A stretch of 8,968 bases of DNA from a bacterium (lineage in GTDB: Bacteria > T1Sed10-126), in assembly GCA_003557545.1 (NCBI GenBank), contig PWOD01000002.1:1-8968 (forward strand), read 5' to 3'. Both the position numbers and the translations under genes were made by a program. Shown piece by piece: positions 3,986 through 8,968 of this stretch; within the stretch, counting starts at the first letter, position 1; each line of letters begins with the position of its first letter. The notes beneath the pieces are model-generated. The model had not been told where the DNA came from, did no database searches, and saw only the letters and a program-made list of their open reading frames with translations.

Positions 3986-6496
3986 TTGAAAAATAGCTAT
4001 GCTGAGCATTTTAAAATGTTGGTTTTTGTGTTGATCGTGGGATTTTTTCTGGTGGTAAATGTTTCAACAGTTTTTGCTCAGACTACCCCGGATGTCTATT
4101 TTGAGTTTGATTCAGATAGTGGTTCTATTACAAAATATTATCCAACCGGGATAAGTGGGGACTCCCCGGAAATTCTTGCTCCGGTAATTCCCCAGGAGAT
4201 TAACGGGGTGCCAGTAGAAATTATTGGCGGTTGGTGGAACAACCCGAGTTTCGCTAATATGAATTTAACTGCTGTAACTCTTCCTGATTCGCTTGTCCAG
4301 ATCAATGATTATGCTTTTCGGGATAATAATTTTACTACGCTGACAATCCCCGACCAGGTTTTGTCTATTGGTATGAGAGCTTTTGAAAATAATGCTCTCG
4401 TGGAATTAAATCTTGGGACAGAATTAATTGAAATTAGTAATAATGCCTTTGCGAATAATCTTTTGACTACCATCTCATTTCCACCAAATATTACGACGAT
4501 TGACCAGGGAGCTTTCAGTCAGAATCAGTTGACGTCTGTTATAATTCCTGACGCTATTACCGAGATTTCTGGGGCTGCTTTTAGTAATAACCAGTTGACT
4601 ACGGTGACACTCCATCCGGAGATTACCGCCATAGATGGGTCTGCCTTTGCCGATAATGATATTGCTCAACTGACAATACCGGATAGTGTGACAACTATCG
4701 GTGGGTACGCTTTTCGTAACAATCAGCTGAGCCAGCTAATAATCCCCGACCAGGTTAGCAATATTGGGCCTTATGCTTTTAAGAACAATAACCTTTCAAC
4801 AGTCATAATTGGTGATTCTGTTGAACAGATTGGGCTTGATGCTTTCCGTGACAATCAGCTTACAGAATTAGTGCTTCCAGATAAGATTTCATTGATTAGC
4901 GAGGGAGCGTTTCGTAATAATAATATTGTAGAAATAGTGATTCCTGATCTGATAACTGAAATAAACGACTGGGCTTTCTCAGAAAACAATTTAACCACGG
5001 TGGTTTTTCACCCCCAGCTGACTGCGATTGGCCGTCATGCTTTTGCTGATAATGCACTGTCTGAACTAACACTTCCCAGTAGTATTAACACAATTGGTGA
5101 TAATGCCTTTCGAGGAAATTTATTAGAGCAGATCGAGCTGCTTGAGTCGATAACAGTAATTTCATCCTACATTTTTTATAATAATCAGTTGACTGAAGTT
5201 ACAATTTCAGATTCGACAACGTCGATTGGAACCGGCGCGTTTGCCTATAATAATTTGACTGCAATAGAGCTTCCTGAAACACTTGAAACCATCTGGGATG
5301 AAGCTTTTGCCTGGAATGCTTTAACGGAGGTAGAGATTCCTGATGCTGTTTCTCATATTGGCTCACAGGCGTTTGTCAGCAATAATCTCACGACAGTTCA
5401 GCTTCCCACTTCCCTCAGTACGATCAATTTTGCAACTTTTGGGTTTAATGAATTAACAGAGGTGATAATTCCTGACTCAGTAATCGAGATCAGGCAAGCA
5501 TCATTTGGAAATAATCAGATTACTGATCTGACAATTCCAGATTCGGTTACTACTATCGCCTGGGGAGCGTTCAGTTCTAATGAGCTAACTACCCTGACGC
5601 TTGGCAGCGCGGTTGAGGAGATTGGGGATGGGGCGTTTCGAGGCAATTCATTAAGCTCATTGACCATTCCTGATTCTGTTGTAACCATCGGAAAAGAAGC
5701 GTTTCATTTTAACGAGCTTGTAGAGTTGAATCTGGGCAAATCAGTCGTGGAGATCGGGGAGGAGGCTTTCGCTTATAATTCTCTAACGGAAGTGGCACTG
5801 CCGGATTCCGTGGTTGAAATCGGGGATGGGTGTTTTTTCTTCAATGATTTGATAAAGCTGCGAATAGCTGCTGATGTATCTGTTGGAGATGAGCGTTCTG
5901 CTGGCAATCACGGTAACTTTAAAGCTGACTATGCAGAGAATAATCTTCGGGCTGCAACTTATCTGTGGGATGAAGCCGCTGAGAGATGGATTCATGATTT
6001 TACCCTGCTTGTGGATATTCAGGGGACAGGTTCTGTGATGATAAATCCGCAAGCTGATAGTTATATTTATGGAACTCAGATCGTTCTTACCGCGGTTGCC
6101 GATACCGCCTGGTTGTTTTCTGAGTGGGCTGGTGATTTGAGCGGAAGCGACACTGTTATTATCTTGATGATTGATGGCAATAAAAATGTTACGGCTAAAT
6201 TTGTTAGTGAAAGTACAGCTATTTTTAAGAATACCGTCTACTCCTGGCCTAACCCTCTGCGGCCTGTTGCTGGAGTTTCAAAGCCGGAGTTGAATTTTAA
6301 TGTACCTGATAGTTTTGGAAATTCTGTGCGGGTGAAGATCTATGATCTGTCCGGTCGCCGGTTTTTTGCTGAAAGATTTTCTCTTCAAACAGCCCGCGAC
6401 CTTACCGTCCGGCCGAAGCTGGCCAGCGGCACCTATATTTTTGTTGTTAGCGGTCGCGGCAAAAGCTCTTCTGATCGGTTTACGGTTATCCGCTAA
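3986..6496 (+). CDS. Secreted BspA-like leucine-rich-repeat protein with InlB-type repeat and secretion-tail-like C-terminus
   Basis: This 836-residue protein is exported and probably surface-attached or released. The TTG at 3986 is taken as start because a GGGGGG ribosome binding site (3970-3975) lies 10 bases ahead and the frame gives a good signal peptide: a basic start, core MLVFVLIVGFFLVV and cleavage after VFA at about residue 31. The first ATG is inside the signal region, at residue 11. Residues 95-622 are 24 consecutive LRR_5 (BspA/TpLRR) repeats of exactly 22 residues, with the pattern TxLxIPDSVxxIGxxAFxxNxL. Residues 673-740 resemble a divergent InlB B-repeat (IQGTGSVMINP, then FSEWAGDLSG and NVTAKF). 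Residues 743-836 resemble T9SS or FlgD-like Ig tails (YSWPNPLRP, VRVKIYDLSGRRF, LASGTYIFVV). Such repeats usually bind proteins or glycans in adhesion. It has its own promoter. The ligand is unknown. Confidence 0.9.
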   Translation: MKNSYAEHFKMLVFVLIVGFFLVVNVSTVFAQTTPDVYFEFDSDSGSITKYYPTGISGDSPEILAPVIPQEINGVPVEIIGGWWNNPSFANMNLTAVTLPDSLVQINDYAFRDNNFTTLTIPDQVLSIGMRAFENNALVELNLGTELIEISNNAFANNLLTTISFPPNITTIDQGAFSQNQLTSVIIPDAITEISGAAFSNNQLTTVTLHPEITAIDGSAFADNDIAQLTIPDSVTTIGGYAFRNNQLSQLIIPDQVSNIGPYAFKNNNLSTVIIGDSVEQIGLDAFRDNQLTELVLPDKISLISEGAFRNNNIVEIVIPDLITEINDWAFSENNLTTVVFHPQLTAIGRHAFADNALSELTLPSSINTIGDNAFRGNLLEQIELLESITVISSYIFYNNQLTEVTISDSTTSIGTGAFAYNNLTAIELPETLETIWDEAFAWNALTEVEIPDAVSHIGSQAFVSNNLTTVQLPTSLSTINFATFGFNELTEVIIPDSVIEIRQASFGNNQITDLTIPDSVTTIAWGAFSSNELTTLTLGSAVEEIGDGAFRGNSLSSLTIPDSVVTIGKEAFHFNELVELNLGKSVVEIGEEAFAYNSLTEVALPDSVVEIGDGCFFFNDLIKLRIAADVSVGDERSAGNHGNFKADYAENNLRAATYLWDEAAERWIHDFTLLVDIQGTGSVMINPQADSYIYGTQIVLTAVADTAWLFSEWAGDLSGSDTVIILMIDGNKNVTAKFVSESTAIFKNTVYSWPNPLRPVAGVSKPELNFNVPDSFGNSVRVKIYDLSGRRFFAERFSLQTARDLTVRPKLASGTYIFVVSGRGKSSSDRFTVIR
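4268..5851 (+). repeat. 66-bp-period coding tandem repeat (24 units)
   Basis: The 24 LRR units give a strict 66-bp period without a single insertion or deletion. Nucleotide identity between units is only moderate, with the conserved islands around ATTCCTGAT, GCTTTT and AATAATCAG. The array therefore looks old and protein-selected rather than recently amplified. Confidence 0.85.
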
Positions 6497-6711: not shown

Positions 6712-7893
6712 ATGGATCTACACCTGGCAGCCAACTATGATTTAGAACTAATTGATAAGGTTGCAGATGGTTCAGTCAGTACTGTTTATGGTAAATGTCG
6801 AGAAGATTTTGTGGGTGGTGGTAGAGCCTCATACATGGGTAAGCAGATCGGGTTTACAGAGCTGGCTTGGTATATTCGCAAATTGAAAGAGAGAGGGCTT
6901 GAATTTTCTTATCTGCTGAACAGTTCCTGTTTGGGCAATAGAGAGTGGAATCGCTGTGGCCAGAAGAAGCTTCAGCGGTTTCTGAAGAATTTACTGCAAG
7001 CTGGTGTGGAAAGGGTTACTGTTTCTACACCATTCCTGTTCAAATTAATAAAAAAACGTTATCCGGAGATAAAGATTACGGTTGGTATTTATGCCCAGGT
7101 GGATACAGTTGAGCGGGTGAAGTTCTGGGATGAGCTGGGTGCTGACGCAATCACCCTGGAGTCTTTTTCGATCAATCGAGATTTCAAACTATTGGGTAAA
7201 ATCAGGCAGTCAACTGATAAGGAGTTGATTTTGCTTGCGAATCATATCTGTCTGTTAAATTGTCCGCTGCAACCTTACCATCAGAACTGTTTTTCCCACG
7301 CTTCAACTTTGGCCCCTGATTTCTTTGTTGATTACTGTTATCTGGAGTGCAACCGGCGGCGTTTTGACAATCCAGAAAGTTTTATTTCATCACAGTGGAT
7401 CAGACCGGAAGATATTGGTAGATACATCGATATGGGATATGAAACCTTCAAATTATTAGAGAGAGATCTTCCGTCTGAAGTGCTGCTGAACCGGGTTAGA
7501 GCTTATGAGAAGCGTCAATACCGGGGGAATCTAGCCGATTTATTGGTTTCTCATTCGTTTGGCCGACCAAAGATAAAAGCGGGTTTCAGATATTTTTTGA
7601 AGCAGTTATTTCAGGCCCCTTTAAAATCTTTGTTGCAAGCCAGAAAATTTATGCAGAGGCAGGGGTTGCTGTATAAGCTTGAGCAGCCGCCGGTAAATAT
7701 TAAAGCTGATCAAATCCCACCAGATTTTCTTGATAGAGTGGTTGAAAGAGATTGTCTGAACAGCTGCTGCAGTGAGTGTGGTTTCTGTAAGAAGGTGGCA
7801 GAACGAGCGGTGGAGCTGGCGGAAGATGGTCGACTAGCAGAGTATTCTGCGATGATCGAACAGCTGGAGAGTGGTGAGTTCTGGAATGTTTAA
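6712..7893 (+). CDS. U32-family (UbiU/UbiV-like) Cys-rich protein, putative Fe-S enzyme of the polyketide operon
   Basis: This 393-residue soluble protein belongs to the peptidase U32 family (PF01136), several members of which are not proteases: UbiU and UbiV carry 4Fe-4S clusters and support O2-independent hydroxylation of the quinone ring. Visible family landmarks are VYGKCREDFVGGGRASY (residues 25-41), LLNSSCLGNREW (68-79), VTVSTPFLFKLIKKRYP (102-118), ADAITLESFSINRDFKLL (144-161) and SSQWIRPEDI (226-235). The Cys set NHIC-x3-C (180, 184), C193, C209 and C213 matches the area where U32 proteins bind their cluster. A second Cys group closes the protein: C348, C352, C353, C356, C359. The ATG at 6712 follows GGGGATAAG. 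It is the first gene of an operon with a methyltransferase and a type III PKS, so I infer oxidation or hydroxylation of the polyketide product. Protease or tRNA-modification roles remain possible. Confidence 0.85.
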   Translation: MDLHLAANYDLELIDKVADGSVSTVYGKCREDFVGGGRASYMGKQIGFTELAWYIRKLKERGLEFSYLLNSSCLGNREWNRCGQKKLQRFLKNLLQAGVERVTVSTPFLFKLIKKRYPEIKITVGIYAQVDTVERVKFWDELGADAITLESFSINRDFKLLGKIRQSTDKELILLANHICLLNCPLQPYHQNCFSHASTLAPDFFVDYCYLECNRRRFDNPESFISSQWIRPEDIGRYIDMGYETFKLLERDLPSEVLLNRVRAYEKRQYRGNLADLLVSHSFGRPKIKAGFRYFLKQLFQAPLKSLLQARKFMQRQGLLYKLEQPPVNIKADQIPPDFLDRVVERDCLNSCCSECGFCKKVAERAVELAEDGRLAEYSAMIEQLESGEFWNV

Positions 7894-8602
7894 CTTGATG
7901 AACCGGGAAGTTGAACGTCAGGAGATTATCGATGGTCCCGGGGCATCGATAAAAATCCTTGAAAAAAGTTATGCGTTAATGGAGGAGGTTAACCGGTATT
8001 ACGGAGGAAGTTATGTGATCTGTTCTTTTTTGAAAAAAGAATACAGTTCTGGGCGGATAACTGGTGGAAAACCGACGCGGATACTTGATCTGGGTAGTGG
8101 CAGCTGTGACCTGCCGGCAGCGGTGATAAAATGGGGCAAGAAAAACGGCCGTGAGATTGAGTATACCTGTCTGGAAACTCAGCAAGCGGCGATAGATCGA
8201 GCCCGTAAAGCCGGCCGTCTGGGTCTTCAGATTCGGATATTAAAAGAGGATTTGTTCGCCTATCAACTCTCTGAAAAATATGATTATGTTACGGCCAGTA
8301 TGGTAATGCATCATTTTGATTATCCGAAGATTTTGGAGATTTGCCAGAAATATCTCGACTGTGTGACAGGGGCTTTAGTAATAAATGATCTGATAAGAAA
8401 TCCGCTTTTTTATTTACTTACCTCTATGAGAACAGCATTCATTAACCCGGGAGTCAGGCATGACGCGCTACTGTCGATTAAGAAAGGTTTTGCCAGGCGA
8501 GAGTTGGAAAGATTAGCGGCCGACCTTCCAGAATTTTCAGTTGAAACTGTTACCAAACCATTATTTAGAATCAGAACGGTTATTCGAGCAAAGGGAGATT
8601 AA
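7886..8602 (+). CDS. Class I SAM methyltransferase of the type III PKS operon
   Basis: This 238-residue enzyme has motif I ILDLGSGSCDLP at residues 66-77, an acidic ribose contact in YTCLETQQ (Glu97), KEDLF (120-124) and an MHHFDYP stretch (141-147). The later segment NDLIRNPLFYLL and RHDALLSIKKGFARREL is, as I recall the family, typical of methyltransferases encoded beside bacterial type III polyketide synthases. I choose the ATG at 7886, which overlaps the U32 gene by 8 bp; in-frame GTGs at 7871 and 7874 and an ATG at 7898 are alternatives, and none has a strong ribosome binding site, so translation is probably coupled. By analogy with SrsB-type enzymes it would methylate a phenolic hydroxyl or ring position of the polyketide; whether it is O- or C-methylation cannot be told. 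The next gene's ATG starts 1 bp after its stop. Confidence 0.85.
   Translation: MFNLMNREVERQEIIDGPGASIKILEKSYALMEEVNRYYGGSYVICSFLKKEYSSGRITGGKPTRILDLGSGSCDLPAAVIKWGKKNGREIEYTCLETQQAAIDRARKAGRLGLQIRILKEDLFAYQLSEKYDYVTASMVMHHFDYPKILEICQKYLDCVTGALVINDLIRNPLFYLLTSMRTAFINPGVRHDALLSIKKGFARRELERLAADLPEFSVETVTKPLFRIRTVIRAKGD
8592..8597 (+). promoter_or_regulatory. Ribosome binding site of the type III PKS gene
   Basis: AGGGAG lies within the last codons of the methyltransferase gene, 6 bases before the ATG at 8604. It fixes the start and shows that the two genes are translated from one message. Confidence 0.7.
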
Positions 8603-8603
8603 G

Positions 8604-8968
8604 ATGAGTCTTTATATAAATCAAATTGGAACAGCAGTACCAGATTTTTCTGTTACCCAAGAAGAGGCCTTTGTCCATATGCAGAAGTTTTTTGATTTAT
8701 CTGAAAAAGAGCGTCTCTGGTATGGCAAACTTTTTCGTCAGAGTCCGATAAAAAAACGGCATGTGGGTTTGGATAGTGTTGAAGATATTACGAGGAATAA
8801 CCAGGATCAACTGGTAGAAAGATTTAATATCCAGGGCCGGCGAGTGGCGCGCCGGGCTGCCCGGAGATGTCTTGAAGTGACCAACTTGGCCGCTACGGAT
8901 ATTGCCCGGCTTACAGTTAATACCTGTACCGGTTATTTATGTCCGGGGTTGACGTCCTACCTGGTAGA
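8604..8968 (+). CDS. Type III polyketide synthase (chalcone/stilbene synthase-like), N-terminal part, truncated by window end
   Basis: About 121 residues are visible of an enzyme normally 350-400 long. It starts MSLYINQIGTAVPDFSVTQ, the usual thiolase-fold beginning of type III PKS proteins. RQSPIKKRHV (about 45-54) follows at the place of the family's xxIxxRy segment, then FNIQGRRVARRAARRCLEV (about 73-91). The strand NTCTGYLCPGLTSYLV (about 106-121) matches the family's CTGxxxPGxD region, except that Asp is Thr here. The catalytic Cys, His and Asn lie beyond the window. A Shine-Dalgarno AGGGAG (8592-8597) is 6 bases ahead of the ATG, inside the methyltransferase gene. Such homodimers condense a fatty-acyl starter with malonyl-CoA to make pyrones, resorcinols or phloroglucinols; a long-chain alkylresorcinol product is plausible here, but starter choice cannot be read. 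A KAS III-type enzyme is a less likely alternative. Confidence 0.88.
   Translation, partial: MSLYINQIGTAVPDFSVTQEEAFVHMQKFFDLSEKERLWYGKLFRQSPIKKRHVGLDSVEDITRNNQDQLVERFNIQGRRVARRAARRCLEVTNLAATDIARLTVNTCTGYLCPGLTSYLV

Follow-up and report, generated by a model that had tools for sequence, protein, structure and literature searches.

A U32-family protein beside a methyltransferase and a type III polyketide synthase: a candidate operon for oxygen-independent modification of a phenolic lipid

Three genes at the end of the window, which is the whole 8968-bp stretch of DNA analysed here and the entire contig C95 of a genome of 2.15 Mb and 92% completeness, encode a U32-family protein, a methyltransferase (MTase) and a type III polyketide synthase (PKS). 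The set is real and not a local accident, as the same genes lie together in other lineages. We read it, with a probability of about 0.6, as an operon of three genes that would make a modified phenolic lipid and in which the U32 protein would hydroxylate without O2. As far as the literature searched shows, the set is undescribed; a search that left out most subscription literature found no paper tying U32 proteins to type III PKS chemistry. The genes are as follows.

6712–7893, + strand: U32-family protein, 393 aa, assigned from PF01136, the predicted fold and cysteine conservation
7886–8602, + strand: SAM-dependent methyltransferase, a relative of PRK06202/NF004851
8604–8968, + strand: N-terminal 121 aa of a chalcone synthase-like type III PKS, the reading frame continuing to the contig end

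All three lie on one strand. The preliminary description had reported an 8-bp overlap and a 1-bp gap among them, and the coordinates agree: the U32 stop and the MTase ATG overlap by 8 bp, and 1 bp separates the MTase from the PKS. Purine-rich, ribosome-binding-like sequence precedes each start, including the PKS ATG at 8604; GTG codons at 7871/7874 are alternative starts for the MTase. No excess of promoters or terminators was found around the operon, and a plasmid search with the window U32 gave no match. Elsewhere in the window, positions 3986–6496 encode a BspA-type leucine-rich-repeat protein with six LRR_5 copies, part of whose C-terminus resembles type IX secretion sorting domains.

The best NCBIfam match of the MTase is NF004851/PRK06202 (E 4e-32), at 111.5 bits against an equivalog cut-off of 243, making it a relative only. 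Because the window is the whole contig, the 3' end of the PKS gene is missing. The 121-aa fragment has no Pfam match; it matches NF042429 (DpgA, E 1.6e-12) and PDB 1u0m (E 0.0026), and it is 42% identical to a complete PKS from genome G161 that carries both Chal_sti_synt domains. The fragment ends at residue 121, ahead of the catalytic Cys; every complete U32-linked PKS has the Cys-His-Asn triad. The remainder was not found in the rest of the same genome, where the sole match resembling a type III PKS C-domain is a FabH.

Conservation of the neighbourhood, which the preliminary description had named as a check, extends to distant lineages. A single-protein scan of genome contigs gave no matches, and an alignment of distant U32 proteins led to 63 loci, none with PKS or MTase genes of the window's types nearby. 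These loci were first taken as refutation; searching 386 genomes for the MTase family, where PKS and MTase proved a common pair, overturned that and was the starting point that exposed the conserved sets. The complete set occurs in the window's gene order in G161 (loci L092/L111), a member of the class of Candidatus Sumerlaeia; within the same class, G413 and Candidatus Sumerlaeia SKW40 have identical U32s. In G119 (L106/L110) the set is split between contig C70, with the PKS and the N-terminal part of the U32, and contig C157, with the C-terminal part and the MTase. Following this order led to complete PKS-U32-MTase operons in G406 and G393, of the same lineage. G157 has the order U32-YceI-PKS, after which comes a UbiE-type MTase (UbiE match at 3e-50, below its cut-off), and G068 the order YceI-PKS-U32. 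A type III PKS thus adjoins a U32 gene, or lies one gene away, in five families, in three of them with an MTase of the window's type.

A functional linkage of the U32 with the type III PKS is, in our judgement, nearly certain. The alternative is a chance neighbourhood, in which the gene of a house-keeping RNA hydroxylase or protease lies next to a PKS operon by coincidence; in its favour, U32-superfamily proteins are common, and sister genus G001 lacks the U32. It is already contradicted, and we regard it as extremely improbable: U32 genes are found near PKS genes in five families with differing gene orders and PKS types, the recurrences, which this alternative would have to explain as assembly artefacts, sit inside contigs of several genomes, and neither score nor tree makes the window U32 a TrhP or RlhA. 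On the equivalog model PRK15452 it scores 19.7 bits against 534, and the NCBIfam models for UbiU and UbiV do not match it.

The window U32 belongs to a subfamily separate from UbiU, UbiV, TrhP and RlhA. In an unrooted tree of 70 rows, built by a quick method with SH-aLRT support and with UbiU and UbiV on long branches, it groups at support 99 with an unlinked Spirochaetales protein and the U32s of G161, G406 and G393, and the U32s of G157, G068, G138 and G128 are neighbours of this group. UbiU and UbiV fall outside a 62-row U32 clade (support 96), the branch to UbiV being very long, and TrhP and RlhA are also separate in the tree. The preliminary description had called the U32 related to UbiU/UbiV, and no grouping with either E. 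coli protein was recovered; a grouping with RlhA or TrhP, which it had held to count against its proposal, was likewise not seen. MTases linked to a U32 make up a single clade (support 95), apart from flavoprotein-linked MTases, and the U32-linked PKSs fall into several divergent types. U32 and MTase therefore move as a pair, joined by differing PKSs.

The U32 protein matches PF01136 at 34.9 bits (cut-off 22.4), the match being confined to residues 85–148. Its structural model (pLDDT 86) predicts a (beta/alpha)8 TIM barrel followed by a C-terminal part. The closest fold in the PDB is the U32 protein 5d88 (Z 22; runner-up Z 14); Foldseek also lists many other TIM barrels, which we read as the common fold. 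Two sets of four cysteines are present, C180, C184, C209 and C213 in the barrel and C348, C353, C356 and C359 in the C-terminal part. Across the subfamily, C180, C184, C213 and the C-terminal four are near-invariant. C209 is kept in all six complete PKS-linked U32s and varies elsewhere. To our knowledge, no member of this subfamily has known biochemistry. Barrel spacing is CX3C-X24-CX3C, unlike that of TrhP and most U32 families and not the recurrent U32 spacing CX6CX15CX3/4C, from which UbiU and UbiV also depart (PMC6747719). With two four-cysteine sets, a single chain could bind two clusters, an arrangement reminiscent of UbiU-UbiV, in which each of two chains has one cluster (PMC6747719). 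Characterised U32 oxidases contain [4Fe-4S] clusters and hydroxylate without O2 (PMC6747719; PMC11574389); their substrates are ubiquinone precursors and RNA, with prephenate implicated as oxygen donor (PMC11574389).

Comparison of PKS+MTase loci places the U32 where others have a flavoprotein. The third gene is an FAD flavoprotein in L080, L081, L082, L085, L086 and L089, with Pfam FAD_binding_3 tested and confirmed in L080, L082 and L085 (L112 is a longer copy of L085), and it is a U32 in L092/L111 and L106/L110. In L097 and L103 the pair has no assigned third gene. Among the PKS loci examined, none was found with both a U32 and an FAD flavoprotein. The window set itself has a U32 instead of a flavin hydroxylase or oxidoreductase of the srs/pkq/hid type. 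YceI genes accompany U32 versions (L143, L145) and a flavoprotein version (L086); YceI proteins bind isoprenoid-type lipids. As the contig stops within the PKS, an FAD hydroxylase might also lie downstream, making the U32 an extra enzyme and not a replacement. We think this quite improbable, as the flanks examined in G161, which has the same gene order, and in G406, G393, G157 and G068 showed no FAD monooxygenase.

A profile built from the linked U32s matched 18 genomes of the 386-genome sample, the window's included, and a PKS lies beside the subfamily U32 in 4 of the 17 others. Homologues occurring mainly without a PKS, which the preliminary description had listed, together with a grouping with RNA-modification or protease members, as evidence against its proposal, are thus what the wider subfamily presents. 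Since most members have no PKS nearby and some lie in polysaccharide or other loci, the chemistry of the subfamily may be broader or different. The U32 could act in the pathway through another Fe-S reaction, one that reduces or dehydroxylates, modifies the chain or activates the starter acid; a methylated resorcinol or pyrone with no extra oxygen would then result. Consistent with this are the varied settings of members: L011 and L150 have acyl/CoA ligases and a thioester reductase-like protein, L018 and L022 represent a polysaccharide-like locus, and L122 and L149 have radical SAM proteins nearby. The cysteine spacing, too, is unlike that of known U32 oxidases. Two points make it unlikely: the U32 fills the slot of the FAD flavoprotein, and the U32 proteins of known function in the literature consulted are all linked to hydroxylation (PMC6747719; PMC11574389).

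Other members of the subfamily were observed in further settings. One lies beside UbiA and UbiD, with a second, convergent U32 (L148:7267-13281, G226), and one beside a UbiE-type MTase and a UbiD read by eye (L135:617-3857, G356); both may act in isoprenoid quinone synthesis at a step that needs no O2. These neighbours are quinone-type genes, and we count them in favour of the main reading. ANME/Methanosarcinales loci (L039, L043, L066 and others) contain tandem U32 gene pairs, recalling UbiU-UbiV, and in L066 a UbiA-like gene is about 3 kb from the pair. In L010 (G052:C1:2660000-2678000) the U32 belongs to what is probably a biosynthetic cluster, whose other genes encode glycosyltransferases, a carbamoyltransferase, an acyl-CoA ligase and a UvrA-like protein. 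The polysaccharide-like locus of an Omnitrophota genome (L022:477-6097) has three subfamily U32 genes with radical SAM and amidotransferase-like genes between them. A Clostridia/Bacilli clade comprises L019:9001-12968, L021, L025, L026 and L034; in L019 a GHMP-type kinase gene and one for a CobD/HisC-like aminotransferase come after the U32.

For the operon as a hydroxylating pathway, we propose that the type III PKS would extend a fatty acyl starter with malonyl-CoA to an alkylresorcinol-type ring. The U32, a putative Fe-S protein, would then probably add a ring hydroxyl without O2, by analogy with its characterised relatives, and the MTase would attach an O- or C-methyl group. This scheme, from PKS alkylphenol through hydroxylation to methylation, is reached by placing the U32 in the oxidoreductase's slot; in aerobic operons, ring hydroxylation is thought to be the task of an FAD monooxygenase (SrsC/PkqC/HidB-like). 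The oxygen donor may be prephenate, by analogy with UbiU/UbiV/TrhP. Each of the eight genomes checked, of which seven host the U32-PKS set, encodes prephenate dehydratase, so prephenate is expected in these hosts. The likely product would be a membrane methylated alkyl-hydroquinone/benzoquinone or methoxyphenol, an O2-independent version of a polyketide quinone; a quinone as the end product has somewhat less than an even chance.

Host physiology bears on where such a product might serve. The preliminary description had the U32 replacing the oxygenase in an anaerobe. Replacement agrees with the flavoprotein slot; the anaerobic setting holds only in part, as G161, G393, G157 and G068 have haem-copper oxidases together with the futalosine-pathway MqnA/D. 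The view that all hosts are anaerobes was accordingly rejected. A survey of these incomplete genomes for haem-copper oxidase and MqnA/D gave no match to either in G119, G406 and the window's genome. Menaquinone was also considered for the window's genome and set aside on two results, the lack of an MqnA/D match and a single UbiA-family protein that is not close to MenA. The main quinone of the three genomes without these matches might be of polyketide type. A wider proposal, that a two-Fe-S-site U32 replaces the flavin monooxygenase in a widespread O2-independent polyketide-quinone pathway whose products carry electrons where menaquinone genes are absent, is tentative and in our view rather doubtful. 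If the main reading is true, U32 hydroxylation reaches beyond ubiquinone and RNA to polyketides, and lineages without menaquinone genes may have an extra quinone class. Expressible operons offer a way to test U32 chemistry, with a product easily seen by MS.

Known systems share the architecture of the set and differ in its redox enzyme. The oxidoreductase/hydroxylase of polyketide quinone operons needs O2 if it is a flavin monooxygenase. Actinobacteria use a type III PKS, a methyltransferase and an oxidoreductase to make respiratory polyketide quinones, which carry electrons at low O2 (PMC9927152). Like the window set, pkqABC of Mycobacterium smegmatis, the Streptomyces sp. MNU77 cluster and srsABC of S. 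griseus combine a PKS and a methyltransferase with a ring-modifying redox enzyme (PMC9927152). In pkqABC/srsABC this enzyme is an oxidoreductase/hydroxylase of another kind and not a U32, and the product is known, whereas that of the window operon is a proposed one. Operons of MTase, oxidoreductase and PKS yield alkylresorcinols in Planctomycetota (PMC10896814) and cyanobacteria (PMC8086630). The hidABC and planctomycetal operons resemble the window set in their three parts, and the S. ferox variant includes an isoprenoid-binding protein; the exact role of the FAD partner is still unsettled in Planctomycetota (PMC10896814). In these operons the oxidoreductase is an FAD enzyme and not a U32, and the PKS and MTase are only distant relatives of the window's. 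Compared with UbiU-UbiV, the window U32 lies in a separate clade, has a different cysteine spacing and an extra C-terminal four-cysteine set, adjoins a PKS and not an isoprenoid quinone pathway, and has no second U32 gene beside it. It shares with them the U32 family, conserved cysteines fit for [4Fe-4S] and, as proposed here, hydroxylation of the ring of a membrane lipid precursor without O2.
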